Virus record (IMG/VR): IMGVR_UViG_3300001847_000619
Span: 1-61,376 of that record
Length of the DNA: 61,376 bases
From: a virus
Reading direction: 5' to 3' (one strand)
A program made the position numbers and the translations under genes. This document shows, piece by piece, positions 5,215 to 58,656 of the stretch (position 1 is its first letter; every line of letters starts with the position of its first letter). Below the pieces are notes generated by a model, which saw nothing but the letters and a program-made list of their open reading frames with translations, ran no database searches and was not told where the DNA came from.

Positions 5215-5997
5215 ATGGCATTTATAAAAATAGATAAAGAAATACTCAATAGTTATTGTTTTTCAAATCCTAATCATTTAAAAATATGGATATGGATGTT
5301 AGTAAAAGCGAACTATAAAAAATGTTTTATTCCAGTAAATTCTGGTAGAGGAACTACAACAATAGAGGTTGATAGGGGTCAATTTATTTTTGGAAGATTT
5401 AAGGCTGAAGAAGAGTTAAATTTGAATGGTTCTCTAATTTATAGAACTTTACAAAAATTTGAAGAATTAGGTCAAATAAATCTGCATTCGAACAACCAAT
5501 ATACCGTCATAACTATTTGTAAATATGACGATTATCAAAATAAAAATGATAGAAACGAACAGCAAACGAACAATGAAAGAACAATGAATGAACAATCATT
5601 GAACAATGAACGAACAATGAATGAACAATCATTGAACACATCTAAAGAAATTCTAGAAGATAAAGAATATAAAGAAAATAAAGAAGAGTATATAGGCAAA
5701 AACGCAAACTTTAATTCTAATTTAAACAGAAAACCAAATATTCCAACTAAAGAAGAAGTTTGGGAAGTTTTTCAAAGAAGTGGAGGAACAAAAGAAATGG
5801 CTAAATCATTTTTTGAAAAATACGAATCTGTAGGATGGGTTACGAATACGGGAGCAGTTACAAACTTTATTCCATTAGCCAATAGATTTATTTCTACTTG
5901 GAATACAATCGAAGAAAAATCAAAACAGAAAAACAATCCACAACAACAACCAGTAAAAATAAAACTCAAGTCCATAACTTCCCCTAATCATGATTAA
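5215..5997 (+). CDS. phage replication initiation protein, 260 aa
   Basis: The N-terminal ~110 residues read as the winged-helix domain of phage replisome organisers (FIKIDKEILNSYCFSNPNHLKIWIWML, the GQFIFGR segment, then a YRTLQKFEELGQI helix). A low-complexity Asn/Gln/Glu linker with two identical 11-residue repeats follows, then a C-terminal DnaD-like helical segment. The linker repeats are caused by a 33-bp DNA repeat resembling origin iterons. It overlaps the helicase start, consistent with joint helicase loading. Confidence 0.75.
   Translation: MAFIKIDKEILNSYCFSNPNHLKIWIWMLVKANYKKCFIPVNSGRGTTTIEVDRGQFIFGRFKAEEELNLNGSLIYRTLQKFEELGQINLHSNNQYTVITICKYDDYQNKNDRNEQQTNNERTMNEQSLNNERTMNEQSLNTSKEILEDKEYKENKEEYIGKNANFNSNLNRKPNIPTKEEVWEVFQRSGGTKEMAKSFFEKYESVGWVTNTGAVTNFIPLANRFISTWNTIEEKSKQKNNPQQQPVKIKLKSITSPNHD
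5570..5635. repeat. two tandem 33-bp repeats within the replication gene (candidate origin)
   Basis: Copies at 5570-5602 and 5603-5635 differ at one base. Each contains ACAATGAATGAACAATCATT with CAATGA/TCATTG half-sites in inverted orientation. Iterons inside the initiator gene are how lambda O and many related phages mark their origin. Confidence 0.65.
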
Positions 5998-9839: not shown

Positions 9840-10118
9840 ATGAAACTAAAGCCAGTAGGAAGTAAATTACTTGTTCTTCCCCTTGAAACAAAAAACTACG
9901 TAACTAATACTAACATTGAATTAGTTGAAACAGAATTAGCAAGAGCTAAAGTTGTAGAAGTGTCAGATGAGCTTTCAAATATTTATAAGATTGGAGATAT
10001 TGTAATGTATCCAGATAAAGCAGGGATTCTTCAAATTTACAATGGAGATAAATGCCTTTGGTTAAATGGAATGGGATTTCCAAATGGAGATGTTTGGGCT
10101 ATAACTGATGAAAATTAA
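9840..10118 (+). CDS. GroES-like co-chaperonin (Cpn10), 92 aa
   Basis: The length and strand order fit the 10-kDa co-chaperonin: N-terminal KPVGSKLLVLPLE, a mobile-loop-like segment (TKNYVTNTNIELVETE), AKVVEVSDE, then YKIGDIVMYPDKAG and a terminal strand ending VWAI. Phage versions such as T4 gp31 cap host GroEL to fold the major capsid protein. It heads the unit leading into the sugar cluster and virion genes. Identity is inferred from pattern only. Confidence 0.75.
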   Translation: MKLKPVGSKLLVLPLETKNYVTNTNIELVETELARAKVVEVSDELSNIYKIGDIVMYPDKAGILQIYNGDKCLWLNGMGFPNGDVWAITDEN

Positions 10119-26631: not shown

Positions 26632-29600
26632 ATGGCAGAAGAATTAGAGCAAATACAAGAAGAAAATATTGAGCCAACTCAAGAACAAGATATTCAAGGG
26701 GAACAAGTAGAGCAAACGCAACAAGAAACACAACAACAACCTCCATCAAAGGCAAGTGTATTATACAATAATTTATTAAAAGACGGATATACCAAGCAAA
26801 ATCTTGGAGATGAACAATCTTTTATAAAAAACGTATCAACAAAAGAAGGGGCAGCTAAAATACATTCTGTATTGTTATCGGATGGGTATACAGAAGCAAA
26901 TCTTGGGAATGTAAATGATTTTACAAATAACCTTGTGGCACAACCTCCCGTTCCAAAACAAGCTCCTTTATATACAGCAAAAGGATTTATAGAACAAGAA
27001 AAGAAAAAAGCAGAAGAACAATTACTTCCCGTTATACCACAAAAAAAGGCAGAAGTTAAACCATCAGCTCCCCAAAGACCATCAATAACTCAATATGATA
27101 GAAAAGAAGATGAAAATGGATTTATGAGTGCATTGGGAACAGCTACAGATTATGCTAAACATCTTTATAATAAAATATTAGATGGCGTTGGATATGTTGC
27201 TTCTGGAGCTTTAGAAACGCAAGCAGCTACAACATCTGCATTAATAAATGCTGCACAACAAATAACTGGGGATAAAGGATTTGATTCGCAAGAATTTCAA
27301 AATCACATAAATAATGAGATAGTTCCAAAAATAAAAGAAAAGATAAAATTAGCAGAAGCTACAGTACCAAAAGAATCACAAAAAAAATTTGATGATAGTT
27401 TTTTATTATCATCAATATCAGGATTGGCAGAATTTGCACCAGCAATGCCATTAGGAGTAGCAGGAATGTTGGCTGCTGGAACTGATATGGGCATTCAAGC
27501 TATAAACAATAGTGAAGTTGGTAAAAAATTACCAGAAAGCATTAAATCTATATTTGGAATAACTACAGGTACAGCTACAGCCCTTCTTACTGAATTAAAA
27601 TTAGATAAGATATTTGGAAAGCAAACCGAAAAAGTAGCATCCAAATTAGCAGTAGAAACTCTAGATGGATTATTGAAAAAATCCACAGAGCCAATAACTG
27701 CCGATGCTTATAATGCTGCTCTTCAAAACGCTGCAAAATCATTAAAGGAAAAAGTTGTATCTTCTGGAGGAAAAATGTTAAAAGGCGGTGCTATAGGTTC
27801 TTTATTTGGTGGGTTAAACGAATCAACAAATTTATTAGCTGAAGATATTACAAATAGATTAACGAATCAACAAGTATTTGAACCAACTAGTTTTGGTAAA
27901 GCATGGTCAAGAATATCAAAAGGAACTGCATCAATGGGTGTAGGTGGTATTATATTAGGAGGAGCTCATATTCCCTTCTCTAAAACAGAAAATTATATAA
28001 AAAACAAAGTATCAGAAGCTAAAACCATAGATGATATAAATAATCTCAAGAGGGAAGTAACGCAACAAGTACAAGGAGGAGATGTTTCAATAAACGATGC
28101 AAATAGAGTACTTGATTTAATTGACCATTATACAAAAATAAATAGCTCAATTCCAGTAGATGTTCCCAACAAATCACAAGTAATAGACAAAATAAAACAA
28201 AGAGATGATTTACATCAACAAGCCAATGATATATTAACAGAAGCTCAAAATTTAGACCCTGCATTTCAAGAACAAAAAATAAAAGAAGCTCAAACATTAA
28301 CAAATGCAGCAGACGATATACATAATCAAATAGCAGGTAAACCTGTTTATAGAATAGGAGAACAAGAAGTAGATAGAGATACATTTAACAATTATTTAGA
28401 TAGCGAAGCAGCAAAAGGCAATAAAGATGAATTATATGTAGAGAATGATGACGAAATGAGTTCTAAGTTAGAGAAACAAGGGGGAAAAACTACTATAGAT
28501 GAAGAATTAGGGACTCCTGTTACTACAAATAAAGTAGAAGAAGTTCCCGTTCCTACGACAAAAGAAAAACCACAAGAACTAATAAATACTACCATATTTG
28601 ATGAAAATATGATTCCAATATCAGATGAAAACGAATCATTAGCTAATAAGGTAATAGACAATGCTATTTCTAAATCAAAATCCTTAGAAAATTTTCATTC
28701 AAAACTAAGCCAATTAGGATATAATTTTAGAAGTCAAACAATTGAAAGTTTAAACAAATTTGTTCAAGATAGGATTGATGGCAAAACAAATCAATCATTT
28801 GAAGATTGGAGAAATCAAAATAAAGAAACAACAAAAACAAAAGAAAATGATACACAAAACATCACAGGGATACCAAGTGTTATCGGAGAAGGGGAAACCA
28901 CTATCAAAGCCAAACCTATCGAAGGCGGAGGCACACAAGAGATTAGCGGTGGTGGAGTACTTCAAGAAAATGTCCCCAGCAGACAAGGCGAAATGGCAGA
29001 AAAGCCACAAGAAGTAAAGCAAGGGGAAGAAACAAAAAATGAATATATAAAAAGAAAACAATCTGAAATATTATCTGAATTAAAAAACAAATATCCAACG
29101 CTAATAACTGGAAATGATATAAACCCAATGGTGGCACAACCAAGGTATATGTCAAATACAGATATAGAATTAGCTAAAAAGTTTTTAGACCCTACAATAT
29201 TAGAAACTCAATACAATCTAGAAAAATCAGAACTTCCCAAAACAAAAGAAAAAATACCTGCAAAAGAAAAAGTATTTTCTAAAGCATCAGTAAATAGAAC
29301 AGAAGCTAAAAAAGTATATAATCATGTTTATTCATTAGATGACCCAACAGATGCAAGGGGAATAGCCAAAAAATGGCTTTCATTAGGGGGTAAGGTATCT
29401 ATAGATTCTTTTGCAGATGAGGTTACTGGATTAATAAAAAGTAGGGGTCAAGCTAAAATAATAATACCTAAAGAGGCAAGAGAAAGCGAGTTTACGGATT
29501 CTAAATCTTCCCTTACAGTAAGCAAAGCAGCTCATGACCTATGGGATAATCTACCAGATGAACTAAAAGATTCAATATCAGATTCAGATATAAAAGATGC

Positions 29601-32600
29601 ATTAATAGAAGAAATGCGTTCTTACAATAAAAGAGTAGATATAGCTAAAGATTTTATATTAGAATATGACCCAGAAGAAGCAGTAAAAAGATTTTACGAA
29701 AAAGATATCGAAGAAAACAAAGCAGCTTATGAAGCAGAAAGAAAAGCAGTAGAAGATTGGTATAATGAGCAAGCTGATGAGAATTTCGATTTAATGCAAG
29801 ACGATGAATTTATCAACCAATTAATTAAAGAATATGAACAAGAATATCCAGAACAAGTTAAGGGAAGTACTGAAGAAATTACCACAGGAGAAAAGGGAAG
29901 AGGCGTTAAAGAGGCTATCGGTGGAGAGGCTATTCAAGAAGAAGGAGCAAAGCCAACAAAAGAAGTAGAAGTTCCCCTTGCTGAAAATCCATTCGAAAAA
30001 ACCCCTAAAACACAAGTAGCAAGAGATAAATACTTCAAGCAAACATTTGGAGAAAACGCAGATAAAGCAGAAGAAATTTATAATAAATATAAAGATACTA
30101 ATGACTTTGAAGCAATGCAAAAGGAAATGCAAGGGGAAGTGCCAAAAGCCGAAAAACCTGTGGCAGAACCTCCCGTTCCTCCAAAAGAAGAAAAACCAAT
30201 AGAAACACCTTCTGAAGAAGAAAAGTGGACTGCAATAAGAAAAGCTAAATTAGAAGAAATAAAAGGAGTTAAAGAGATGTTTGAAAAAGAAACATCCAAA
30301 CCTTGGACTAAAATACAACAAGAAGCATTAGAAGATGTAGCTAAAGAGTTTCCAAAGAAAACATTAAACGATGCTATAAGAACTAAAGTAGAAAGGCTTG
30401 CTGCTAAATACGATGCAAAAGAAGATTATAACCCTACTGCAAAAGATTTAGCTGTAATACAAGAGTTTAAAAGGCAAACAGAAAGCAAAATAAATGCTGC
30501 AAAAGAAGAACTACAATCAGATAATGATATAGAAAGATTTGCTGCTATAGCTGAAATGACAAGCTATGAAAATGATTTATTAAATGCAAGCAAAGCTTTA
30601 TTTACACAAGAAGCAGGTAGGGCATTTGGATTTAGGCAATCGGAAAGCATCAAGGATGAAAATGCAGGGCTTCAAATAAGGAGAATGCAATTAATGAGAG
30701 CTAATGGAATGGAGAAGCTTTCAGATGCTGATAATAAATTTTTAGAATCTCAATGGGAAAAAGAAAAAGAGTTGATGAAAAAAGAACAAGAGATTCGTGA
30801 GCAATCACTAAAAGAAGCATTTGATAATGAAGTCGCTAAACTACAAGAGGAGTATGAAAATAAACTAAAAGAAAAAAAGATATCAGCTACAGATAAAAAA
30901 GCATCAGATAAGCTAAGGAAATTTGCTGAAAAAATAAGGAATAGCAAAACCCTGGATATGCTTGGACTTGGAACTCCTATTGAAGGAGAAGCAAAAGGTA
31001 TATCTTTTAATACAAAAGAAGCTTTAGCAAAAGTTATAGAAAAAATGGCTGATGGAATGGATAAAGTTGAAGCCATAGCAAAAGTGCTAAAAGAATATGG
31101 AGTAGACAAATCAAAAGAGTTTTCTGATTTAGTAGATAAAGCTTTAATAAAAATAGCAAAACCTGATACAGATGAAGTTTTATCTAAAATAAAAGATTTA
31201 GCAAGCAAAACAGACGAAAAAAATGTAACTAATGAAATGGTTGCTAAAGGTCTTATTAGAGATTATGTAAATTCTTTTATTGGGGAAGTTGATAAAAGTA
31301 AAGTATTAAACGAAGCAGCTACAAAACTTAAGGAAGTTCTTCCCGATTTGGATAGAAAAACATTAAGAAATGCATTTTTAAAAGAAGGCGAATTTAAACA
31401 ACCTACAAAAAAATCATTAAACGAAGCTCTTAATCAAGCAAAAAGAGATTTATTAAAAATAGAAAAAGAACAAAGCAAAAAAGAAGCAACAGAAGATGAG
31501 CTTCAAAAGAAAAAATTAGAGCAAGAAAAAGAAAAAGCACAAAAAAGCATAAGGGATTATCAAAGAAGATTAGATAATGAAAAATATGAAAAAGAAGAAC
31601 CAATAGTGCTTAAAAAACAAGATGCAGAGCTAATAAAAATAAATAAAGAGAAAAATCAAATTAAATCCGAATTTGATAAAAAAAGAAAAGAATTAGAAGA
31701 AAAGAATAAGCATTGGTTACAAAGAGCAGCAGATTTTGTTAGGTCATCATATATAGCATCATTAATAGGAAATCCTGTTACATTAGCAAAAGTTGCTTAT
31801 ATGTCTATTATAAGACCAACTTCCGAAATAACAAGAAAAGTTATATTAGGTAATTTGTTTAAAACCATTGCTCCTAATTATTATGAAGCTGCATTAAAAG
31901 GAGGAGAAAGTAAAAGTTTAAAAAGTATTGAAGCTGGACTTAATGCATATTTCAGACAGATGGGAGAAAAAAAGATGCAAGAAAAGTTTCAAAAAGCAAG
32001 CAATGAATTTGACCAAGCAGCTAAAAAATATTACGATGCAGTAAATGCTAAAGCTGATGAAAAAACATTATCCAAGTTGAAAAAAGATATGGATAATAAG
32101 AGGTTGGCTGCTATGGGGAATATTGTTTATCAATTTATTGGGGGGAGCTCTATAAAAGATGCGTTACAATCATTAGTAAATAGAGCAAATGAAATAGAAA
32201 GGCAATTTGGTAAAACTGAAACAGAAAGCATAAAAGATGGCAACGCATTAGATAAATTAAATTATATTTTAGGGTTTATAGGTCGTTCTCATAGTGCTGC
32301 TAAAACATTTTCAGGAAGATTTAGCTATGCAGCAAGCTTTATGGCTAGATTAGAAGGTGCTGCAAGAGATGGAAGCATATCAGACCCAAACAGAATATTA
32401 GAAATAGCACATGAAAGTTACATAGATTGGGAAAGAGGTAAATATCAACAAGATAATTGGGTAACTAAGAAATGGAACGATGTAATAAAATCAATAAAAG
32501 AAAAAACAGCAGGAAAAGGAGAATGGAGTAAATACGATAAGGCACTAGAAGCATTGCTTAAGACAGATGTAGCTATAACAAGAGTTCCCGTAAATATAAT

Positions 32601-33702
32601 TCATGAAGCTGTAACAGAATATACATTAGGAGCATTTAGAGCACCAATATTAGCCTATAGGGAATATGCAAAAGCTAAAGGCAAGGCAATAGAAGAAGGA
32701 TATAGCAAAACATTAGATAGTAAAGAATTTAAAGCAAGAGTTGGCGAATTGATATCTAAAATGGATGCAGAACAAGCGGCAAAAATATATAGATTATTTA
32801 CAAAAGGAGGATTAGGTGCTGGTCTTTATGGTCTTGCATTAACTACTGGATTAGTTCAATTTGGAGTCTTCCCTCACAAAGGACAAAAGAAAAAGAAAGA
32901 AGAAATATATCTAAAAGAAGGAGAATTAAATCCAGGTCAAATAATGTTTGGTAATGATAGGCTTGGCGAAACAGCATCTAAATTAATAGAACATACACCT
33001 GCCTTGTGGACTACATTTATGGGATTAGGGATAGCCAAAATATATGCAGATGATGTTAAAGAAGGGAAGATGTCATCTCAAGCAGCATGGGATGCAGCAT
33101 ATACGCATATGCAAATAATAGAATCATCTATACCTCAAACAAAAGTAGTTAGCCCATTAGAAGTGTTAAAAGGTGCAGGAAAATCTTTTGCAGGTAAGCT
33201 AAGTGATTATGGTATTCTTGATAATTATATTGACAGTAAAGGAGCATTTATAAATCAAGAAAAGAAAAAACTTGAAATGACGACATCTGAAGTATCTCGC
33301 TTAAAAGATTATAAAGTAGAACCACCAAGATTAGGAGTAAGAAGTCAAAATAAAATAGAAGTAGATGCAAAACATCCAAAAGTTGGATTATCAAAAGATG
33401 GCAAGCCTTATGCTTATATGAATGATTTTGAATGGGATAAATTCAATGAATATAGAAAAAAATATATAAACGATGCTTTGAAAGAAATATATGATGCTGC
33501 TGATGCAGGAGATATTAAATTAAATCAAGAAAATTTAACAGATGCGTTAACTAGAATAACTAAACAAGCAACATCTATAGCTAAAAGTAAATTAATTGAT
33601 GAGGGATTTTTATCTGAAAAGAATAAGGAAGATGAGGAAGATGAAAATATAGAATCTATAAACACAATTATAAAAGATATATACAAAGAAGCTAAAGAGT
33701 AA
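26632..33702 (+). CDS. giant internal virion/ejection protein, 2356 aa
   Basis: The largest gene. Residues ~1-40 are Glu/Gln-rich, then two copies of a ~40-residue motif (LLKDGYTKQNLGDEQSF and LLSDGYTEANLGNVNDF). Hydrophobic Gly/Ala stretches lie around 255-290, long charged coiled coils between ~1200 and 1700, and a mostly helical C-terminus. Such multi-domain giants are stored in podovirus heads and ejected with DNA. The linker near 740-800 is overprinted by another reading frame (see 28847). No peptidoglycan hydrolase motif was identified. Confidence 0.6.
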   Translation: MAEELEQIQEENIEPTQEQDIQGEQVEQTQQETQQQPPSKASVLYNNLLKDGYTKQNLGDEQSFIKNVSTKEGAAKIHSVLLSDGYTEANLGNVNDFTNNLVAQPPVPKQAPLYTAKGFIEQEKKKAEEQLLPVIPQKKAEVKPSAPQRPSITQYDRKEDENGFMSALGTATDYAKHLYNKILDGVGYVASGALETQAATTSALINAAQQITGDKGFDSQEFQNHINNEIVPKIKEKIKLAEATVPKESQKKFDDSFLLSSISGLAEFAPAMPLGVAGMLAAGTDMGIQAINNSEVGKKLPESIKSIFGITTGTATALLTELKLDKIFGKQTEKVASKLAVETLDGLLKKSTEPITADAYNAALQNAAKSLKEKVVSSGGKMLKGGAIGSLFGGLNESTNLLAEDITNRLTNQQVFEPTSFGKAWSRISKGTASMGVGGIILGGAHIPFSKTENYIKNKVSEAKTIDDINNLKREVTQQVQGGDVSINDANRVLDLIDHYTKINSSIPVDVPNKSQVIDKIKQRDDLHQQANDILTEAQNLDPAFQEQKIKEAQTLTNAADDIHNQIAGKPVYRIGEQEVDRDTFNNYLDSEAAKGNKDELYVENDDEMSSKLEKQGGKTTIDEELGTPVTTNKVEEVPVPTTKEKPQELINTTIFDENMIPISDENESLANKVIDNAISKSKSLENFHSKLSQLGYNFRSQTIESLNKFVQDRIDGKTNQSFEDWRNQNKETTKTKENDTQNITGIPSVIGEGETTIKAKPIEGGGTQEISGGGVLQENVPSRQGEMAEKPQEVKQGEETKNEYIKRKQSEILSELKNKYPTLITGNDINPMVAQPRYMSNTDIELAKKFLDPTILETQYNLEKSELPKTKEKIPAKEKVFSKASVNRTEAKKVYNHVYSLDDPTDARGIAKKWLSLGGKVSIDSFADEVTGLIKSRGQAKIIIPKEARESEFTDSKSSLTVSKAAHDLWDNLPDELKDSISDSDIKDALIEEMRSYNKRVDIAKDFILEYDPEEAVKRFYEKDIEENKAAYEAERKAVEDWYNEQADENFDLMQDDEFINQLIKEYEQEYPEQVKGSTEEITTGEKGRGVKEAIGGEAIQEEGAKPTKEVEVPLAENPFEKTPKTQVARDKYFKQTFGENADKAEEIYNKYKDTNDFEAMQKEMQGEVPKAEKPVAEPPVPPKEEKPIETPSEEEKWTAIRKAKLEEIKGVKEMFEKETSKPWTKIQQEALEDVAKEFPKKTLNDAIRTKVERLAAKYDAKEDYNPTAKDLAVIQEFKRQTESKINAAKEELQSDNDIERFAAIAEMTSYENDLLNASKALFTQEAGRAFGFRQSESIKDENAGLQIRRMQLMRANGMEKLSDADNKFLESQWEKEKELMKKEQEIREQSLKEAFDNEVAKLQEEYENKLKEKKISATDKKASDKLRKFAEKIRNSKTLDMLGLGTPIEGEAKGISFNTKEALAKVIEKMADGMDKVEAIAKVLKEYGVDKSKEFSDLVDKALIKIAKPDTDEVLSKIKDLASKTDEKNVTNEMVAKGLIRDYVNSFIGEVDKSKVLNEAATKLKEVLPDLDRKTLRNAFLKEGEFKQPTKKSLNEALNQAKRDLLKIEKEQSKKEATEDELQKKKLEQEKEKAQKSIRDYQRRLDNEKYEKEEPIVLKKQDAELIKINKEKNQIKSEFDKKRKELEEKNKHWLQRAADFVRSSYIASLIGNPVTLAKVAYMSIIRPTSEITRKVILGNLFKTIAPNYYEAALKGGESKSLKSIEAGLNAYFRQMGEKKMQEKFQKASNEFDQAAKKYYDAVNAKADEKTLSKLKKDMDNKRLAAMGNIVYQFIGGSSIKDALQSLVNRANEIERQFGKTETESIKDGNALDKLNYILGFIGRSHSAAKTFSGRFSYAASFMARLEGAARDGSISDPNRILEIAHESYIDWERGKYQQDNWVTKKWNDVIKSIKEKTAGKGEWSKYDKALEALLKTDVAITRVPVNIIHEAVTEYTLGAFRAPILAYREYAKAKGKAIEEGYSKTLDSKEFKARVGELISKMDAEQAAKIYRLFTKGGLGAGLYGLALTTGLVQFGVFPHKGQKKKKEEIYLKEGELNPGQIMFGNDRLGETASKLIEHTPALWTTFMGLGIAKIYADDVKEGKMSSQAAWDAAYTHMQIIESSIPQTKVVSPLEVLKGAGKSFAGKLSDYGILDNYIDSKGAFINQEKKKLEMTTSEVSRLKDYKVEPPRLGVRSQNKIEVDAKHPKVGLSKDGKPYAYMNDFEWDKFNEYRKKYINDALKEIYDAADAGDIKLNQENLTDALTRITKQATSIAKSKLIDEGFLSEKNKEDEEDENIESINTIIKDIYKEAKE
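28847..29017 (+). CDS. nested out-of-frame gene or relic inside the giant gene, 56 aa
   Basis: In the frame one base ahead of the giant gene, 56 codons read GYQVLSEKGKPLSKPNLSKA followed by EAHKRLAVVEYFKK and a basic tail. This is the pattern of a small phage protein family (strand, K-x-LS turn, helix with a RLxxVEYF motif). The giant protein is here a low-complexity Gly/Glu/Lys linker. The upstream frame is open from 28760, but the ATG at 28847 gives the normal family length. It may be expressed, or be a relic of a gene captured out of frame. Confidence 0.55.
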   Translation: MIHKTSQGYQVLSEKGKPLSKPNLSKAEAHKRLAVVEYFKKMSPADKAKWQKSHKK

Positions 33703-33746
33703 TATATCTTCCCCTTGCAAATAATAACCAAATCAAACATATAAAT

Positions 33747-34603: not shown

Positions 34604-36682
34604 ATGGGGGATAAAATAGAAATATATCATACAATAATAGAACTTCCCGAACAGCCATCAATAGAAAATATTGAAAACTGGGGAACAGAAAATCCATTAG
34701 AGCAATATTGGAGAAGAAGGGAATTGCCATCTTATTTAGAGCAAGTTGAATATGATAAAGATGGAAATGCTTTATTAGATAGCAAACAAAGAGAATATGC
34801 TTTAGAAGAAGTTAGAAGATGCAAAGATGGATTTTGGTTTATGAATAGAGGCATTCCTACTTATATAACAGGGAAAAATTACTTTTATTTACAATGGTGG
34901 AAACTTGAAGATGATATATATCCCGATTATAGAGATTTAGATAGAAGATATTTTCTTTATTTGAATTACTGGGAAAATACTCCTTGGTGTTTAGGAATAA
35001 TGATAGGTAAAAAAAGAAGGCAAGGGCAAACATCTATAGGCACATCTAATTTAGTATATGAATGCGTTTTCTTTAAAAATAGTTTTTGTGGATTAACAAG
35101 CAAAACACAAATAGATGCCAAAAATACATTTACAAATCTTGTTGCTTTTGGATATAGACAATTGCCAGTATTTTTAAAACCAAAGCAACTTAACAATAAA
35201 GATTCTGTAAGCGAATTGGTATTTGCCCATAAATCAGTAGAAGTAAAAGGGTCAAAAGGGAGTGCTATAGATTCAGATACAGGACACAGGTCTAAAGTCG
35301 ATTATCGTGCTCCTGGTAAAAACGCCTATGATTCGGGTAGACTTAGTCGGGGACTCTTTGATGAGGGTGGAAAATTCCCCCCAGAAGTTCCCTTCTCTGA
35401 ATTTATATCTATTGTAAGCAAAACGATGGTAAAAGGGGTTAAAAGAGTTGGTTTTATGGAACTGCCATCAACTATGAACGATATGACTAAGGGAGGTGGA
35501 GAGCAATATAAATTATTGTGGGATAAAGCAGACCATAGTAATGGTAGAACTCCTAGTAGACTTGTAAGATATTTTAGCCCAGCTTATGATGGATTTATGG
35601 GTTTTATAGATAAGTACGGGATTAGTGTTATAAATGAACCTACAGAAGAACAATACAAATATTTAGTAGAAAATTTTCTTGGTCTTGGGGATTTGACAGA
35701 GGAAGACGTGAAGTTAGGAGCAAAGCAATATTTGATTAATAAAAGAGTTGGATTAGAAGGAACATTGCTTGAGGAAGAGATTCGTATGAATCCTTTTGAT
35801 GAGAAAGAAATGTTTCAATCTGCTATTGCATCTTCCCTTTACAACTCATTTAAACTAAATCAACAATTAGATTTTTTAAGTTATAATGAACTAACAGAAA
35901 GAGGTAATTTAGTATGGGAAGATGGACATGAAATTTATAAAGAAGAACTTAATAGTCAAGGGGAACTCATAGGAATAAAACCAAGTAAAGTAATATGGAT
36001 TCCAAATGAAAATGGAAAGTACGAAAAAGTAAAAGGATGGAAACCAAAAGAATCTAATAATGTATATGAAAGCAATGGCTCATTTTCCCCTGGCGGCAAA
36101 TATGCAATAAGAATAGGATGCGACCCTTTTAAATACGATAAGACAAAAGACAATAGAAAGTCAAATTGTGCAGCTTATGCATATCAATTAGAAGATTTAT
36201 CTGATGAAAATTCAGAATTTAATGATATGTTTGTGATGAAATATGTAGATAGACCATTAACTACTGATTTACAATATGAATCAGTATTAAAAATGGCTTG
36301 GTATTGTGGCACACAAGTTCTTTTTGAAAGAAACGTAGAAGGATGGAAAAAGTACTTTAATTATAATAAATGTGGAGGATTCTTAATGTGGTTGCCAAAA
36401 GAAGTAGAACCTGGCATATATACTGATGGGGCAGGTAAGACCACACAAATGATATGCGACTTTACGGAAGCGTACATTGAAAAGAACATACACAAAGTAT
36501 ATTTTAAATCCCTTATAGAAGAAACAGCAGGATGGCTTGGATTCGAGGTGGGAAATACTCAAAAGTATGATGAGGCGATGGCAAGTGGATTTGCTTTAAT
36601 AGCAGCAAAACAAAAAAGATACATAAAAGAAGAACAAAGAAAGAAAAACGTTGAATTTATAATACCTTATACAATAGCTTAA
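34604..36682 (+). CDS. terL: terminase large subunit, 692 aa
   Basis: The ATPase domain has a Walker A-like motif GKKRRQGQTS (residues 135-144) and Walker B GLFDEGG (near 250-256); the nuclease domain starts around residue 500 with AIRIGCDPFKYD, a first acidic metal ligand, and has a YDEA motif near the end. The order fits the enzyme that cuts and pumps DNA through the portal. At 692 residues it is on the long side, as in crAss-like phages. It is followed directly by the portal gene. Confidence 0.88.
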   Translation: MGDKIEIYHTIIELPEQPSIENIENWGTENPLEQYWRRRELPSYLEQVEYDKDGNALLDSKQREYALEEVRRCKDGFWFMNRGIPTYITGKNYFYLQWWKLEDDIYPDYRDLDRRYFLYLNYWENTPWCLGIMIGKKRRQGQTSIGTSNLVYECVFFKNSFCGLTSKTQIDAKNTFTNLVAFGYRQLPVFLKPKQLNNKDSVSELVFAHKSVEVKGSKGSAIDSDTGHRSKVDYRAPGKNAYDSGRLSRGLFDEGGKFPPEVPFSEFISIVSKTMVKGVKRVGFMELPSTMNDMTKGGGEQYKLLWDKADHSNGRTPSRLVRYFSPAYDGFMGFIDKYGISVINEPTEEQYKYLVENFLGLGDLTEEDVKLGAKQYLINKRVGLEGTLLEEEIRMNPFDEKEMFQSAIASSLYNSFKLNQQLDFLSYNELTERGNLVWEDGHEIYKEELNSQGELIGIKPSKVIWIPNENGKYEKVKGWKPKESNNVYESNGSFSPGGKYAIRIGCDPFKYDKTKDNRKSNCAAYAYQLEDLSDENSEFNDMFVMKYVDRPLTTDLQYESVLKMAWYCGTQVLFERNVEGWKKYFNYNKCGGFLMWLPKEVEPGIYTDGAGKTTQMICDFTEAYIEKNIHKVYFKSLIEETAGWLGFEVGNTQKYDEAMASGFALIAAKQKRYIKEEQRKKNVEFIIPYTIA

Positions 36683-36684
36683 AT

Positions 36685-39030
36685 ATGAGATATACTCAAA
36701 TGGGAATTGGAAGTTCCTACCCTTATCCAGACCACAATATAGCACCTGAAAAGAAAGATGCTGAATGGTGTATGCAATATGCAAAAGCGGTATATTACGA
36801 TTTTACATATGCGTATCCAAAGGGAATATTTGCTAACAATAATGGCGACTATGAAAAGTTCAGAATGTATGCTTTGGGCAAACAGCCAATATCCCCATAT
36901 AAAAAATTATTAGGCGTTGATGCACAAACAAATCATACTTGGTTATCTGTAGATTGGACTGCTAGAGCAGTTGTTAGTTCTTATAGAGATAAGGCTATAA
37001 GTAGATTAATGAAAGATGACTTTGGATTGATTTGTACTCCAATAGATATGTTGGCTAAAGATGAAAGAGAAGATTATTATAATCAATTAAGAATTAAATT
37101 GATTATGAGGGAACAATTACAAAAGCAAAATCCAGAGCTTGCAAATCATCCTGCATTAGCATTAAATCCAAATGAACCTTCTGATTTAGAAGAGTTAGAA
37201 ATGAGATTGGATATGGATGAGCAATTCATAAGAAGTAAAGATGCAGAACAAGCAATAGAATTAGCATTTTATCAAAATAACTACAAAGCACAAAGAAGGC
37301 AAATATTTGAAGATTTGTTTGATTATGGAGTAGCAGGATATAAGGATTGGTTAGGAGATGACAATAAGGTTTATTATAGAAGAGTTAATCCAGAATGTGT
37401 AGTTACAAGCTATTGTAAAAATGGAACATTTAGTGATATTGTTCATGCTGGGGAAGTCATAGATGTTTCTCTTGTTGAATTGGGAACAATAAAAGATAAA
37501 GATGGTAATGCAATGTTTACCGATGAAGAATTGCAAGAATTTGCAGGTTCTATTGCAGGTAAATTTGGAAATCCTGCTCAATTAGGAAAAGGAACTGGAT
37601 GGTTTAAAAGCTACGATAGATTTAAGTGTAAGGTTTTAGATTTAGAGTTTTATACTTATAATGAAAACGTATATAGAGAAGCAGTAGATGAAAATGGGAA
37701 TGTTGATTTTAGAAAAGCTGATTTTAATAGAGGGAAGAAGTCAGAAAAGTATAAAAGAAAAAGAATCCAATATGTATATAAATGCAAGTGGATTATAGGA
37801 ACAGATAAGTGTTACGACTGGGGGATGGCTTATGACCAAAAAAGAAGTAATGACCCAAAGAAAAAAACAAAAGCGAGATTATCATATAATTTCTGTGCTT
37901 ATAACTTCTATGAAATGAAGGGGCAATCATATATGGAACGACTTATTCCCTACATTGATGATTATCAATTAACCATTCTTAAAATACAAAACTTTAAAAA
38001 TAGAGCTGTACCTTCTGGATGGTGGATAGACCTTGACTCATTAGAGAAAGTAGCACTTAATAAAGGGGGTGCTAATATGCAACCAAAAGAGTTATTACAA
38101 ATGTTCTTTGAAACAGGTATACTAGTGGGAAGAAGTGTAACAGAAGCAGGAGAGCCGCAATCTCCCAACTGGAAACCCGTAATACCCATTGAAAATACAG
38201 CAGCAAGCGAATTAGCTATGTTTTATCAGGACTTAGTTAACAGCATTTCTATGATAGAAAGAATAACAGGATACAATGATGTTACTTCTGGAAATCCAAA
38301 TCCAAAAACTCTTGTTCCTGGATATCAAATGGCAGAACAAAGTACAAGTGATGCTCTTTATCCAATGGCATTTGCAGAGGAAGATATAACACTTAGACTT
38401 GCAGAAGATTGCCTTTGCAGAATGCAACAAGGAATCAAAAAAGGAGGAATGGTATCAGGCTATGCTCCTGCATTAAATTCTAACACTCTTAAATTTATGG
38501 AGATAGCTCCAGATATTGCACTTAGAGATTATGGCATTGAATTGGAAAGAAGAACAAGTAATGATGAAAAAGCATGGCTATTACAACAAATGCAAGTTGA
38601 TATTCAAAATGGGTTATTAGACACATCTGATGCCGTATTGCTTGTGAACACAAAGAATGTTAAACAAGCTCAAATGATATGGGCACACAGAGTGAAAAAA
38701 GCTAAAGAAAAAATACAACAACAAGAATTAGAAAAGATTCAAGCCAATAATGAAGGGCAGCAACAAACTGCAATGGCAGCACAGCAAATGCAACAGCAAC
38801 AAATGCAAATGCAGTATCAGTTTGAATTGCAAAAAGAACAAATGCGTATTCAAGCAGAATTAGAAAAAGAAAGGATGAAAATAGAATCTATGGAAAGAAT
38901 AGCAATGCAAAATAGTCAAACTAAAATTGCTGTGGCTCAAGAAACAGGAGATTCTAAATTAAATTCTCACATGATAATGGGTAATTCATCTATAGAAAAA
39001 CAAAAAATCGCAAATCAAAAAACAAAATAA
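36685..39030 (+). CDS. portal protein, 781 aa
   Basis: Identified by position directly after the large terminase, size, and features of crAss-like portals: YGVAGYKDWLGDDNKVYYRRVNPECV (the wing), a long central helical stem, and a C-terminal Gln/Met-rich coiled coil (QQQMQMQYQFELQKEQMRIQ) from ~680. The C-terminal helical crown is long. It forms the dodecameric channel at the head vertex. Confidence 0.75.
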   Translation: MRYTQMGIGSSYPYPDHNIAPEKKDAEWCMQYAKAVYYDFTYAYPKGIFANNNGDYEKFRMYALGKQPISPYKKLLGVDAQTNHTWLSVDWTARAVVSSYRDKAISRLMKDDFGLICTPIDMLAKDEREDYYNQLRIKLIMREQLQKQNPELANHPALALNPNEPSDLEELEMRLDMDEQFIRSKDAEQAIELAFYQNNYKAQRRQIFEDLFDYGVAGYKDWLGDDNKVYYRRVNPECVVTSYCKNGTFSDIVHAGEVIDVSLVELGTIKDKDGNAMFTDEELQEFAGSIAGKFGNPAQLGKGTGWFKSYDRFKCKVLDLEFYTYNENVYREAVDENGNVDFRKADFNRGKKSEKYKRKRIQYVYKCKWIIGTDKCYDWGMAYDQKRSNDPKKKTKARLSYNFCAYNFYEMKGQSYMERLIPYIDDYQLTILKIQNFKNRAVPSGWWIDLDSLEKVALNKGGANMQPKELLQMFFETGILVGRSVTEAGEPQSPNWKPVIPIENTAASELAMFYQDLVNSISMIERITGYNDVTSGNPNPKTLVPGYQMAEQSTSDALYPMAFAEEDITLRLAEDCLCRMQQGIKKGGMVSGYAPALNSNTLKFMEIAPDIALRDYGIELERRTSNDEKAWLLQQMQVDIQNGLLDTSDAVLLVNTKNVKQAQMIWAHRVKKAKEKIQQQELEKIQANNEGQQQTAMAAQQMQQQQMQMQYQFELQKEQMRIQAELEKERMKIESMERIAMQNSQTKIAVAQETGDSKLNSHMIMGNSSIEKQKIANQKTK

Positions 39031-39454: not shown

Positions 39455-39512
39455 TTGTTTGTGATAATAAAAAAATATAATTTTACTTAACCAATCTTAA
39501 AACCAAATCAAA

Positions 39513-40667
39513 ATGAATATTAAAAAGTTCTATGAAGCAGAGCCAGAAGGAGCTAATCAAGGAGGCGGAGAACCTGAAAGTATAGCATCATTAATGGCAA
39601 AGCAAGGGAAAATGAGCCACGAAAATAGCCCAGTAGTACCTAGTGTGACAAAAAAGTCAGAACCAAAAAGCGAAACTAAAGTTCAAGAGCCGACTCCTGT
39701 TGAGCCAACAAAAGAAAGCATTGAATCAAAAGTTGAGCCAGAAGTTCCCAAAATAGCTAAAGAGGAAGTGCAAACTACTCAATGGCAAGAAGTTCTTAGA
39801 CAACAACAACCTGAAGCAATCTTAAAGGAACTTGGTTTCAATGAAGATGCTGTAAGTTTACTAAGTGACCTTAAAGAAATTGACCCTAAAATGGCTAAAT
39901 TTCTTAACACTTGGAAAACTAATGGGGATGGGATTAAAGAATATCTAAAAGAAATGACAACGGATTATAGCAAGATGCCAGCCGAAGATGTGATGCGACA
40001 TCAACTTCGTGAAGAGTATCCAAAAGCTACCGAAAAACAATTAGATGTTCTGTTTAGAAAAGAAGTTATCGAAAAGTACAACCTTGATTCTATGGATGAA
40101 GATTTACAAGAAGAAGGAAAGTTATTGCTTGATGCAAAAGCTGAAATGTACAGAGATAAACTTGTTCAAAAACAACAAGAATATCTTCTTCCCCAATATA
40201 CTCAAAAAACTGATGATTCAGAAGAAAGAGCACAGCAAGAATTTGAAAACTACAAGAACAATGTCTTGGGTAGCCAATTAACGCAAGATATGATGCAAAA
40301 CAAAAGATTATCTATAGGCGAAGGGGATGAAAAATTCAATTACTCATTGACAGACCCCAATAGCGTTGTAAATAATCTATTTGATAGTAATGCTTGGTCA
40401 AATAAACTCTTTGAAGTACAAAAAGATGCCAACGGGAATGAGCAATTTGTTCCCAACATAGAAAAGCAATTACTAATATCTGCAATACTTGAAGACCATA
40501 AAGGCTTCCTAAGAGAAATGGCAAAACATTACAAATCTCTTGGAGGTAAAGCGACAATTGATTCTTTAGATAACCCAAGTCCAATAGGAGGTTCAGCTCC
40601 ATCTAAGCCAGCTACAGAGCCTAAAAGCCCTGCTGAATGGATGGCTAAAAACGGAAGGTTGGTATAG
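39513..40667 (+). CDS. putative scaffolding protein, 384 aa
   Basis: Located directly upstream of the major capsid gene, Glu/Lys/Pro-rich in the first ~85 residues, then predominantly helical with many acidic residues and a short Pro-rich C-terminal end. This is the typical composition and location of a capsid scaffolding protein. Its leader (CCAATC, then A-rich sequence) resembles those of the genes at 42152 and 51461. Confidence 0.65.
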   Translation: MNIKKFYEAEPEGANQGGGEPESIASLMAKQGKMSHENSPVVPSVTKKSEPKSETKVQEPTPVEPTKESIESKVEPEVPKIAKEEVQTTQWQEVLRQQQPEAILKELGFNEDAVSLLSDLKEIDPKMAKFLNTWKTNGDGIKEYLKEMTTDYSKMPAEDVMRHQLREEYPKATEKQLDVLFRKEVIEKYNLDSMDEDLQEEGKLLLDAKAEMYRDKLVQKQQEYLLPQYTQKTDDSEERAQQEFENYKNNVLGSQLTQDMMQNKRLSIGEGDEKFNYSLTDPNSVVNNLFDSNAWSNKLFEVQKDANGNEQFVPNIEKQLLISAILEDHKGFLREMAKHYKSLGGKATIDSLDNPSPIGGSAPSKPATEPKSPAEWMAKNGRLV

Positions 40668-40711: not shown

Positions 40712-42079
40712 ATGCCAGTTACACAAGGAACAATGATTAAGTCGTATGTATCTGCAATCGACTTTCTTGACCAAAGGGATATTGACCCTAACATTTACGA
40801 CCAAAGTCGTGATAAAGCGTTTACCGACATCATGAAAATGGTAAATCGCTACAAACCTGCAACAATGTTTAACTACCATAACTTCGTTAATAACGATGTT
40901 TATGAAGTTGGAACAATTAGCTCTGTAAGCTCTACAGGTTTGGCTCAAATTCAATTCACAATCAACACAGCATCTACATTCCCTCGTGTTGGAGATTTGA
41001 TTATGACATCAAATGCTAACAACAATACAGCTACAGGTGCTAAACAAGCTCGTATCCAAACCGTATCTTTTGGTTCTGGTACTGCTACTTTAACTGTTCG
41101 TTCAGTAGGTGGTAACTCTGCTGCTTTCTATGCTACAGTTGGAGATAAAGTTGCTTTCTCTTCTAATGCATTTGCTGAAAAATCAGATGCTCCTACAAAT
41201 CGTAGATATGGTTTAACTAAGTACTATAACTTAATTCAAATCTTCAGAGAAGTAGATGAGATTTCTGATATTCAGAAAGTGGCTAAAATTGAAGTTAACG
41301 TAGGTGGCGACTATCACATTCTCCCTTACCAAACAGTACAAAAGTACATCAAGCTTCAAGGAGATATCTCTGTTCAAATGTTGGCTGGTGCTCAATCAAG
41401 CACTTTGTTCAATGATTCTAACCCATTCTTAGCTGACCCAAGTTCAGGATTGCCTATCCAAACTACAGGTGGTCTTGACTGGTATGTAACTACTTATGGT
41501 ATTACTGACCAAGCTGCTGTATTGGGTACTTTTGGATTCACTGAATTAGATGCTATTATCGATAACTTTATCGCTAATAAAGCACCTACAGACCAAATGG
41601 TATTCATGGGTTCTAAAGCTTATCGTATCATCAGCAAGTTCTTGAAGAATCTTGGTTCATCTGGTGTAACATCAGTTCGTTTGAATATCGATGGTAAGAC
41701 TTTGGATTTTGAAGTTGAGCACCTTTCTTATGGTGGATACGAATTTGATTTCGTTCATGTTCCTATCTTCGACCATCCACAATTATTCTCTACAACTTTA
41801 AGAGCAGATGTTAATGGTTCATTATACTTTGTTCCTAAAGACCAAGTAGATACAGTTGATAATGGTCGTCAGCCTCGTATGCAAATCCGTCACACTCCTA
41901 CTCCATTTATGGGTAACGCAGCTAATAAATCAGCTAACGGTATCGTAACAGAGTGGAGAACAGGAGCTTTGGCTGAAATTCCTACAAATAGCACTATGCA
42001 ATTGCATACTGACTGGGAAACAGGTCAAGGTCTTGAGTGTCTTGCTGTGAAGCACTTCCAAAAATACCGTATCGTTTAA
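40712..42079 (+). CDS. major capsid protein, 455 aa
   Basis: Identified by position after the scaffold and by composition: N-terminal helical arm (SYVSAIDFLDQRDIDPNIYDQ), a beta-rich inserted region near 75-155, and a large domain with FVHVPIFDHP and TDWETGQGLE near the end. Codon choice differs from neighbouring genes (more C-ending codons and CGT), as expected for the most abundant protein. An HK97-type fold is assumed but cannot be proven from sequence alone. Confidence 0.7.
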   Translation: MPVTQGTMIKSYVSAIDFLDQRDIDPNIYDQSRDKAFTDIMKMVNRYKPATMFNYHNFVNNDVYEVGTISSVSSTGLAQIQFTINTASTFPRVGDLIMTSNANNNTATGAKQARIQTVSFGSGTATLTVRSVGGNSAAFYATVGDKVAFSSNAFAEKSDAPTNRRYGLTKYYNLIQIFREVDEISDIQKVAKIEVNVGGDYHILPYQTVQKYIKLQGDISVQMLAGAQSSTLFNDSNPFLADPSSGLPIQTTGGLDWYVTTYGITDQAAVLGTFGFTELDAIIDNFIANKAPTDQMVFMGSKAYRIISKFLKNLGSSGVTSVRLNIDGKTLDFEVEHLSYGGYEFDFVHVPIFDHPQLFSTTLRADVNGSLYFVPKDQVDTVDNGRQPRMQIRHTPTPFMGNAANKSANGIVTEWRTGALAEIPTNSTMQLHTDWETGQGLECLAVKHFQKYRIV

Positions 42080-44553: not shown

Positions 44554-47500
44554 ATGAAAAAAATAATATTATTAATTTTATTAGCTTTTAGTTTTGCTAT
44601 CACATTTTCCCAAACATACCCAGTAACTCAAATACTTGGTTCTCCTCAAACATTAGTATTATCTAAGGGAGGTCTTAAAGCAGATAGCTCTTTAATAATA
44701 CCATCTTTTACAGATACAAATGCTGCTAATAAATCTACCTATATAAAAAACTATCCTGGTAATATTATAAGAGCTGGAGACCAAGTTTATGTTAGAAATG
44801 CAAATGCTACAAAATGGTTAATATTTGCACAATCTGGAGGAATATCAGGTACTGTAACAAGCATAAGTCAAGGATATGGAATTTCAAATTCTCCAAATCC
44901 AATAACAACCACAGGAACAATAAAAGTTGATACATCAGTTTCTGGATTGAGTGGTAAATATGTTAGGATATTAGATACATCAGTCATGCTATCAAAATAT
45001 CTAAGAAAAATAGATACTGCTACTCTTTCTAATAGGATTAACTTAAAGGTTAATATTTCTGATACCTCATCTATGTTATCTTCATATTTAAGAAAGGTGG
45101 ATACTGTTTCTTTGTCTAACAGGATTAATTTGAAAGTGAATGTTTCAGATACATCATCAATGTTGTCTCCTTATTTAAGAAAAGTTGATACTACAAATAA
45201 ATTTGTAAATAGCATCACAAGAATACCAGGAAAGGATTCTATAATATTTTATGTAAATAGCAATAGATATGCAATTAAAGATAGTTCAGGTGGAGCAGGA
45301 ACAGTTACAAGGGCTGTTGATACGATTTACAGAACGCCTGGTAAAGATTCAATAATATTTACTATTAATGGGATTAGAAGAGCAATAAAAGATAGTTTAG
45401 GAGTAGGTGGAAGCGGCACTCCAGGAGGACCAACTAATTCATTGCAATATAATAATAATGGAAATTTTGGAGGAGATGCAAATTTAATATATAATGGAAA
45501 TTCATTAGGTATTGGAAATCCACCATCTTTGTATTCAAAATTAGTTATAAATGATACATTTCATAGCGTTTTTAATAATAATGATAATATTCCAAATGCA
45601 AATATTTGGTTAAATAATGTTAATTATGGACAAAATACTATTTTTTCATCAATAAATAATCTTAATTCAGCGAAATGGCGTTCAGATTATTTTGGTAATA
45701 GTTATTTGGTAGCTTATGCTGGTAATCATTATTTTTTGACTCAGTCAGATTATGGAGAATCAGAGATTGCACCTAAATTAGGATTAGAGATAATTAATAA
45801 TGGAGATGTTGCAATAGGAGATAGCCTTTTTTGGAAATCAAGTAATAATAGATTAAGTATTAATGCAGGAACAAATCCAAATTCTGCATTAACAGTTAAT
45901 GGTGCTGATGGAATTAATTTTAAAGGATTGCCTAAAACTAATTATAATTATGTATTAGCTTATGATAGTGCAAGTGGACAATTAGGATATAAAACTAGTA
46001 CTGGGGGAAGTGGAACGGTTACAAAAGCGGTTGATACGATTTACAGAATACCTGGTAAGGATTCAATAATATATACAATTAATGGAACAAGAAGAGCAAT
46101 GAAAGATAGTGTTGGTAAACCAGCAGGTCAAAATTATTCATTACAATATAATAATAGTGGAACTTTTGGAGGTGATGCCAAATTTTTATATAATGGCTCA
46201 AATCTTTTTCTTGGAGACGTAAGTAGTTCTTATTCTAAATTATGTGTTGGTGATACATTTACTACTATTCAAAATAGTTATGGAAGTTCAAATGCACAAA
46301 TACAATTGCAAAATAATGATTTTAATGGTGCAACTGCTATTTATTCAGAAATAGGTGGTGGTCCAGTAGGGAAGTGGCGTTCAGATTATAATGGTAGTAA
46401 TTATTGGGTAGCTTATGGGGGGAATCATTATTTTTATACGAATGGAGATATTCCAGATGGAGGAACTAGTAAATTAACAATATTTAATAATGGAAATGTT
46501 GCAGTAGGAGATAGCCTTTTTTGGAAATCAAGTAATAATAGATTAAGTATTAATGCAGGAACAAATCCAAATTCTGCATTAACAGTTAATGGTGCTGATG
46601 GAATTAATTTTAAAGGATTGCCTAAAACTAATTATAATTATGTATTAGCTTATGATAGTGCAAGTGGACAATTAGGATATAAAACTAGTACTGGGGGAAG
46701 TGGAACAGTTACAAGGGCTGTTGATACGATTTACAGAACGCCTGGTAAAGATTCAATAATATTTACTATTAATGGGATTAGAAGAGCAATAAAAGATAGT
46801 ATAGGAAGTGGTGGAGGTGGAGGCATTTCAAGTTATGGTTATTTTTTTGATAAATCAGAGCAATGTACTGATAGTAGTACCACAGGACAATCTATTCTAT
46901 TAGAAATAAAAGACACAGCTATTGCTAATGGATTTCATATAAGAAGTGGCTCAAAAGGAGAAATAATTGCAGATAGTACTGGATTATTTAATTTTCAAAT
47001 TTCAGTTCAATTTTGGGGAAGTGAAGATAGAGGACCTTATGATGCAAGTGTTTGGATGAAAAAAAATGGACATGTTATTCGAGATGCAATAAAAGCAATA
47101 AAATGGATAGATGGTTTTGCAGTACTTACTTATAATAATATTTTAAGCATAAATATTGGAGATACTATTGAATATAATTGGACACATGCAGAATTAAGAG
47201 ATAATTTAGCATTAATATGTATTAAACCAGGAGAAAACAAGGTATTATTAGAAGAAGAAAAAGGAGCTTCTGTTACATTATCTATAACTCCAGTATTAGG
47301 AGGTGGGGGAAGTCAAGATTTACAAAGTGTATTGAATATTGGACATTCTTTAATTAATGAAAGAAATTATCAAGGAACAGATGCAGGAAGTGGTAATACT
47401 GGAAATTATGTAAATGCATTTGGATTAGAAGCAGCAAAAAATAATTCTGGAAATGATGTAAATGCAATAGGAACAGGCTCAGCTTATGGTAATAATGGAA

Positions 47501-48561
47501 ACCATGTAAATGCAATGGGAGGAGCAAATAATAATATTGGAAATGATGTAAATGCATTTGGAGGAGGAGCTGCACAAAGTAATTCTGGAAGTGCTGTAAA
47601 TGCATTTGGAGGTTCTACTGCACAAGGAAATTCTGGAAGTAGTGTAAATGCATTTGGACCTTATGCTGCACAAGGAAATTCTGGAAGTAGTGTAAATGCA
47701 TTTGGACCTTATGCTGGACAAGGAAATATATTTTCAAATGTAAATTTATTTGGTCAAGAAGCATCGGCATCTGATAATAATCAAGTTGTTTTTTCAAAAT
47801 CAGCAGAAAATATTGTTAATGCAAGAATAGATTATAATTGTATAGATGCAAATCATAAATATAGTTTACCAAATAAAGATGGTTATTTTATGAATGCTAA
47901 TCTTCCAATAATAATAAATTCAGAAGATTCAAATGAAGTATACTTAACTAATCCAGATAATTATGAAGTAATAAATTTAAGAGATGATACATATTCAATG
48001 TTGCTTCACTTCCCTGACGCATCAAATGGATGTTTAAGTAATGGACAAAGAATGGTTATTACAAATAAAGTTATAGATAATAACAAAACAGGAGCAATAC
48101 AATTAGCAGGTAATAACATATTTTATAGAGGAACAAATATACCAGTTACAAATATAGGACCAGGAGAAACAGTTGAATTTTTAGCAGAAGTAGATGAAAA
48201 TAATAATGGTAATTGGAGAACCATTACTTCCCTTCCAGAACCAGCAGTTACTTTAGATATGGCTACATTGGGAAGTTATTATATTCATTCAAATGGAACA
48301 TATTTAATAACATCGCAAAGTGAGGGTACAATATATTTTCCTGCTCCATGTAACATGCAAGGTTCTAAAATAACATTGATAAACATTGCTGAAACTGATG
48401 TATATAACCAAGCAATAGAATCATTAGCTCCAAGTAATTGTGATAAATCTAAAATTGTAAATGCAAATTTAACTGAAATAACAGTTCAACAATTAGGAAC
48501 AAGCTCAACATATGTAGCAGTAGGAGATGCATGGTATAAAATTAGTTTTCAATCACCTTAA
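44554..48561 (+). CDS. repetitive tail-fibre protein with signal peptide, 1335 aa
   Basis: Residues 1-20 form a Sec signal peptide (KK, a Leu/Ile core, then FSQ). A beta-rich N-terminal section has three ~30-residue repeats around SDTSSMLSxYLRKVDT, then several copies of AVDTIYRxPGKDSIIxTING, and a large exactly repeated domain. Near residue 940 a YadA-like run of ~14-residue repeats (VNAFGxxAxQxNSGS) begins, followed by a C-terminal domain. Function: receptor binding or adhesion. The signal peptide is unusual for a virion protein. Confidence 0.8.
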   Translation: MKKIILLILLAFSFAITFSQTYPVTQILGSPQTLVLSKGGLKADSSLIIPSFTDTNAANKSTYIKNYPGNIIRAGDQVYVRNANATKWLIFAQSGGISGTVTSISQGYGISNSPNPITTTGTIKVDTSVSGLSGKYVRILDTSVMLSKYLRKIDTATLSNRINLKVNISDTSSMLSSYLRKVDTVSLSNRINLKVNVSDTSSMLSPYLRKVDTTNKFVNSITRIPGKDSIIFYVNSNRYAIKDSSGGAGTVTRAVDTIYRTPGKDSIIFTINGIRRAIKDSLGVGGSGTPGGPTNSLQYNNNGNFGGDANLIYNGNSLGIGNPPSLYSKLVINDTFHSVFNNNDNIPNANIWLNNVNYGQNTIFSSINNLNSAKWRSDYFGNSYLVAYAGNHYFLTQSDYGESEIAPKLGLEIINNGDVAIGDSLFWKSSNNRLSINAGTNPNSALTVNGADGINFKGLPKTNYNYVLAYDSASGQLGYKTSTGGSGTVTKAVDTIYRIPGKDSIIYTINGTRRAMKDSVGKPAGQNYSLQYNNSGTFGGDAKFLYNGSNLFLGDVSSSYSKLCVGDTFTTIQNSYGSSNAQIQLQNNDFNGATAIYSEIGGGPVGKWRSDYNGSNYWVAYGGNHYFYTNGDIPDGGTSKLTIFNNGNVAVGDSLFWKSSNNRLSINAGTNPNSALTVNGADGINFKGLPKTNYNYVLAYDSASGQLGYKTSTGGSGTVTRAVDTIYRTPGKDSIIFTINGIRRAIKDSIGSGGGGGISSYGYFFDKSEQCTDSSTTGQSILLEIKDTAIANGFHIRSGSKGEIIADSTGLFNFQISVQFWGSEDRGPYDASVWMKKNGHVIRDAIKAIKWIDGFAVLTYNNILSINIGDTIEYNWTHAELRDNLALICIKPGENKVLLEEEKGASVTLSITPVLGGGGSQDLQSVLNIGHSLINERNYQGTDAGSGNTGNYVNAFGLEAAKNNSGNDVNAIGTGSAYGNNGNHVNAMGGANNNIGNDVNAFGGGAAQSNSGSAVNAFGGSTAQGNSGSSVNAFGPYAAQGNSGSSVNAFGPYAGQGNIFSNVNLFGQEASASDNNQVVFSKSAENIVNARIDYNCIDANHKYSLPNKDGYFMNANLPIIINSEDSNEVYLTNPDNYEVINLRDDTYSMLLHFPDASNGCLSNGQRMVITNKVIDNNKTGAIQLAGNNIFYRGTNIPVTNIGPGETVEFLAEVDENNNGNWRTITSLPEPAVTLDMATLGSYYIHSNGTYLITSQSEGTIYFPAPCNMQGSKITLINIAETDVYNQAIESLAPSNCDKSKIVNANLTEITVQQLGTSSTYVAVGDAWYKISFQSP
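45298..46800. repeat. two exact repeats within the tail-fibre gene
   Basis: A 202-bp block is identical at 45815-46016 and 46505-46706 (offset 690 bp, 230 codons), and a 99-bp block is identical at 45298-45396 and 46702-46800. Both keep the reading frame. The lack of synonymous differences indicates recent duplication or gene conversion. Confidence 0.9.
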
Positions 48562-57972: not shown

Positions 57973-58656
57973 ATGACACTAAAAGAACAAATGCAAGATG
58001 CAGAAGCTATCTTTCAAAAGATAGACGCCTTTGTAAAAGAAGGTAAAATCAGCCAAGCTTACGAAGTTATTCAATCAGAAAATCCTCCTAATTCATGGCT
58101 TATTGAATTAGACTCTCGCTTAAAAAAAGGAGAAAAATACAAGTCTATTAAATTAGAATTATTAGAGGCGGCAGTAAGAAGAATATTTGGTGTTTGCGAA
58201 CTACAAACAATAGAAAATCCAGTTATTCATAGTGACAAATCTGGTACTATTTCTGTCACAATTATTGCAAAAATCGAAACAAAATATCTTGATGGAAAAC
58301 CCTATCCACTTGTGCTTTCAGGCATAGCAACAGAGATTGTAGATAGTGCAAAACTTCTTCCCCTTGCAACACCAAAGGCATCAAGTATGGCAGTTAAAAA
58401 CGCTATTAAACAATTAGGTAGATTATTTGGAAAGTATCTTAACAACGAATCAGAAGAACTGGAACTTCCCATACAATCAGATGACAATATGCTAACTCCA
58501 GAAGAAGAACTAAAAGCAATAACAGATGGCATAATAACTGCAAAAGCTATTAAAGATTTAAAATCATGGAGGCATCTTGTGTATCAAAAAAAGAATACAG
58601 AACTACAAGATTTATACGAATCAAAACTAAGACAACTACAAGTTGTAGTCAACTAA
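57973..58656 (+). CDS. putative Rad52/Sak-like ssDNA-annealing protein, 227 aa
   Basis: The core ELLEAAVRRIFG ... SGTISVTIIAKIETKYLDGK ... ASSMAVKNAIKQLGRLFGKYLN follows the strand and helix order of Rad52-type annealing proteins (Sak group), with a charged C-terminal tail. The ATG at 57973 is used; the frame is open from 57871 but those codons lie over the promoter. It pairs with the exonuclease at 59048 as a two-part recombination system. Confidence 0.7.
   Translation: MTLKEQMQDAEAIFQKIDAFVKEGKISQAYEVIQSENPPNSWLIELDSRLKKGEKYKSIKLELLEAAVRRIFGVCELQTIENPVIHSDKSGTISVTIIAKIETKYLDGKPYPLVLSGIATEIVDSAKLLPLATPKASSMAVKNAIKQLGRLFGKYLNNESEELELPIQSDDNMLTPEEELKAITDGIITAKAIKDLKSWRHLVYQKKNTELQDLYESKLRQLQVVVN

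Follow-up and report, generated by a model that had tools for sequence, protein, structure and literature searches.

A conserved small phage gene of 56 codons plus stop lies out of frame inside a giant gene of 2,356 codons, and homologues of the same gene stand alone in other phages, mainly beside terminase, portal and head genes. The window analysed here is the whole 61,376-nucleotide stretch of the IMG/VR virus record IMGVR_UViG_3300001847_000619. Within it, positions 28847-29017 (+) translate to MIHKTSQGYQVLSEKGKPLSKPNLSKAEAHKRLAVVEYFKKMSPADKAKWQKSHKK*, in the +1 frame relative to the ORF at 26632-33702 (+), which reads the same DNA as the linker NDTQNITGIPSVIGEGETTIKAKPIEGGGTQEISGGGVLQ... 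By all sequence tests available this is a functional nested gene, most likely a head/packaging gene that was relocated from a free-standing position and is still made by internal initiation, though translation and the direction of the move are inferred, as is, from gene context only, the head/packaging role. We put the probability of this reading at roughly 0.85.

The initial annotation had proposed that the small frame encodes a recognisable phage protein, and had offered two origins, either an overprinted gene expressed by internal initiation or a small gene inserted out of frame that became a linker. The data support a combination of the two, in that the gene appears older than the nest and is thus mainly a relocated gene, yet it is still selected as a protein and has its own start signal. 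However, the label of ejection protein given there to the giant ORF is not supported, as this has no credible Pfam match and no PHROG match.

Homologues and the three states of the gene

The open frame is not a product of chance. Its stop-to-stop segment of 87 codons is the longest of 2,479 out-of-frame segments in the main genes of the window, and local GC is about 49% in a genome of 31% GC. Though PHROGs and Pfam gave no usable match for the 56-residue protein, and solved structures gave none by sequence, a tblastn search of cultured phages found an unannotated free copy in Aeromonas phage 1233. Scans of IMG/VR found first 7 loci, at 64-81% identity, then 170 and 328 relatives in two wider scans (the best 80 kept in each), and a scan of bacterial and archaeal contigs found 96. 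The consensus of 78 members is MIxKTxxGYQVxSEKGKNLSKPNLTKxEAxKRLxQVEYFKHxK, with a second clade carrying GGPYKT in place of SKPNLS. The predicted fold is strand-turn-strand then helix, close to the layout suggested in the initial annotation, and the beta-beta-alpha-alpha model is confident (AlphaFold2 mean pLDDT 91.8). Fold comparison gave only weak Foldseek matches (E 1.5 or worse), among which 3bid, 2k7i and 6q2z recur, small beta-rich folds with a helix, probably of the DUF1508/UPF0339 type; no sequence relation to these was shown, and there was no Pfam match at E below 0.01.

Copies of the gene are free-standing, fused in frame to longer proteins, or nested out of frame in giant ORFs. After removal of near-duplicates, and of six loci flagged as nested that are likely chance open frames (three of them GC-rich microbial loci and three in the second set), there are about 57 distinct nested copies, 47 in the clade of the window and 10 in the second. 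All come from uncultivated viral contigs or MAGs, and none was found in the cultured-phage collection. The giants are mostly of 900-3,400 residues, and the nested gene lies from 61 to over 2,200 residues from their start, always in the same relative frame. The other shifted frame contains at least one stop in every free copy tabulated, in part because ATG followed by A makes TGA, and the zero frame would fuse the two proteins, so the fixed frame needs no further cause. Each of 47 nested phage records, the window included, has exactly one copy. The same small domain also lies in frame inside or at the edge of large proteins (800-1,600 residues) in other viral contigs and in a Methanobrevibacter contig, and many free copies lie in contigs of Acidobacteria, Patescibacteria and uncultured archaea.

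Selection and start signals in the overlap

We compared the two frames among relatives to see which is constrained. In 44 pairs with alignable flanks (these pairs overlap), differences per codon at giant positions 1, 2 and 3 are 0.193, 0.072 and 0.037 inside the nest, compared to 0.263, 0.184 and 0.481 upstream. When considering 16 pairs using each sequence once, the small frame is under strong purifying selection, with a pN/pS of 0.15 (bootstrap 0.11-0.17), while the apparent pN/pS of the giant frame is 3.47 (2.8-4.5). For instance, the window and L011 (another phage that carries the gene nested) alone give a small-frame pS of 0.49 and pN of 0.12, and a giant-frame pS of 0.04 and pN of 0.26. 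In 15 of 16 aligned giant pairs no other window in the gene combines so few third-position with so many first-position changes. As a negative control we used a second long +1 ORF of 78 codons at 40045-40278, in the gene at 39513, which is open by chance: it is not open in relatives, and third-position change inside it equals that outside.

The giant frame also appears to be selected, though only as a generic linker. If the small proteins were recoded with each phage's own codon usage, about 1% would be open in the giant frame, and yet 47 of 47 are. Even given no stops, third positions are shifted (T 0.127 expected and 0.019 seen; G 0.271 expected and 0.502 seen), which lowers Lys+Arg in the giant reading from 0.239 to 0.063 and raises Gly+Pro from 0.104 to 0.231. 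Ribosomes translating the giant ORF would read these bases as a flexible, acidic, Gly/Pro-rich linker. Position-by-position identity in the giant frame is only slightly above the forced level (0.392 against 0.358, sd 0.008), and shared ancestry may explain that. The free copy in L004, an AT-rich close relative of the window, has a GC3 of 0.17 and no such bias.

The nested starts carry their own signals, as judged from sequence. In the window the 20 bases before the start (28827-28846, +) are 80% A with a predicted fold energy of 0. Nested starts of the first clade generally lie in such A-rich, unstructured leaders (fold energy -0.86 against -4.67 kcal/mol for other +1-frame ATGs, p about 1e-20; A fraction 0.547 against 0.346), with A peaks at -14 to -11 and at -6 and mostly no Shine-Dalgarno. 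This matches the A-rich -14 to -11 motif and the A-6 determinant reported for Flavobacterium johnsoniae (PMC6847099), though A at -3, the other determinant there, is not clearly enriched, and codon choice in the giant linker may contribute to the A-richness. A different picture emerges for the second clade, where all 10 nested copies have Shine-Dalgarno-like sequences at suitable spacing (mean -9.7 against -2.8 kcal/mol, p 1.5e-7).

Relocation and alternative origins

One indication of a move comes from L004, whose portal and two following genes are close to those of the window. Here the small gene is free, between an extra ORF after the portal gene and the homologue of the gene at 39513-40667 (+), at the place where the window has the intergenic gap 39455-39512; L011 likewise has only an intergenic gap there and carries the gene nested. 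On the tree L004 groups with the window and L011 (SH-aLRT 91), though support across the tree is poor. A related giant without the gene is found in L184, which matches the L011 giant at 78% identity up to residue 2208, where the nested gene of L011 starts at 2210. Homology resumes after this gene and a further module of about 190 residues (about residues 2270-2460 in L011) with an HEYTHH metalloprotease-like motif, which L184 also lacks. No small gene was found in the L184 contig, though this ends about 250 bases after the portal gene, before the place where a free copy would lie. More generally, homology between giants ends at the nested gene far more often than at random places (84 against 5.2 expected for upstream matches, and 22 against 4.8 for downstream matches). 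The tree, based on 40 columns, needs 19 changes of state by parsimony and at least 4 on well-supported branches, but it cannot fix the direction or number of moves.

The best of the alternatives, though unlikely, is true overprinting, in which the small gene was born inside a giant-gene linker and later escaped to free positions. Nested and free copies intermix on the tree, and the grouping of L004 with the nested window and L011 makes a nested-to-free move possible in that case. However, free and in-frame fused members are more widespread and diverse, the gene is not restricted to the lineage of the host gene, nested copies occur in both main clades, and a folded, widely shared domain is unlikely to arise repeatedly from a linker. 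Far less likely is a dead insert that survives only as a linker of the giant protein: though the giant frame is open in all copies and its composition is shifted to a linker, the selection on the small frame, the retained start codon and start signals, and its being the only copy in each phage all speak against this. A programmed frameshift, giving a truncated giant with this domain as its tail, would fit the shared strand, the +1 frame, and the fact that in some copies the small frame is open upstream of the ATG (31 codons in the window), but a stop lies 0-4 codons upstream of the start in about half of the copies and directly before it in four of them (L014, L032, L051 and L076), the start codon and an initiation signal are kept, and most free copies use the same start. 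A conserved DNA or RNA element that only looks like a gene, such as a packaging or recombination site, is equally improbable, since differences fall at small-frame third positions and are mostly synonymous, protein identity holds across genomes of 28-71% GC while the DNA differs, and the L004 copy is recoded, though the clustering of homology breaks means that the site may also act as a recombination joint.

Nested phage genes are well known, probably including phiX174 B/K/E and lambda Rz/Rz1 (reviewed in PMC8227390), where a complete small gene lies inside a larger one on the same strand, in a different frame and with its own start. These are usually read as overprinted genes at a fixed place, whereas here a pre-existing gene with free-standing and fused relatives occurs at many positions in differing stretches of giant genes, always in one frame. 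The family points to another route, in which the gene of an existing, folded protein relocates into another gene out of frame and both frames adapt in codon choice, linker composition and ribosome-binding signal, and with free, fused and nested states it offers a natural experiment on dual coding. We found no description of it in the literature, within the open-access papers searched. It also warns that gene callers which forbid long overlaps will miss a single-copy, conserved gene in many phages.

Gene context and the host giant

In the window the giant gene precedes the terminase large subunit (34604-36682, +; phrog_6681) and the portal protein (36685-39030, +; phrog_6547), which are followed by the gene at 39513-40667 and the probable major head protein (40712-42079, +; phrog_1328). 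Free copies have terminase large subunit, portal, head-tail adaptor, terminase small subunit and head protein genes among their commonest recognisable neighbours, and several overlap the terminase start, though not every free copy sits in a head/packaging module. In Klebsiella phage DP01 a related domain forms residues 1-41 of the prohead core protein, a head protease-like protein, beside the decoration and capsid genes; it is fused in frame, not nested, and is about 51-54% identical to the free copy of Aeromonas phage 1233. About 268 phage records have a related stretch, the architecture being read in DP01 only. The window protein is basic (14 K/R, 4 D/E, pI 10.2), and a role in prohead assembly or packaging is the most likely reading, somewhat more probable than not, by context only.

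The giants are mosaics in conserved late-gene context, and in this resemble the polyvalent proteins of phages (PMC5512222), a paper in which a term search found no use of the word overlapping. Those of one group (the L030 group) share their C-terminus with giants of cultured phages, some annotated LPD5 domain-containing, and two such cultured phages lack the nested gene. For the window giant itself this kinship is indirect; neither it nor four other giants had a Pfam match above cut-off. Searching cultured phages with the giants of the window and of L014 found nothing, and searches with conserved giant segments returned few new loci.

The 9-mer TTCCCCTTG occurs 37 times in the window, on both strands and both in genes and between them (e.g. 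9877-9885, 29020-29028, 33709-33717 and 58358-58366), against 0.57 expected, and one copy lies directly after the stop of the nested gene. The relatives L177 and L010 also have it at 0.3-0.4 per kb. Other repeats in the window include long internal direct repeats at 45276-47724 (690-714 base spacing and a 48-base unit) in the gene at 44554-48561, possibly a repetitive tail fibre or adhesin, and a head-to-tail 11-base repeat (GAACAATGAAT-like) at 5557-5638 within the gene at 5215-5997, where, since 11 is not a multiple of three, the reading frame shifts from copy to copy.
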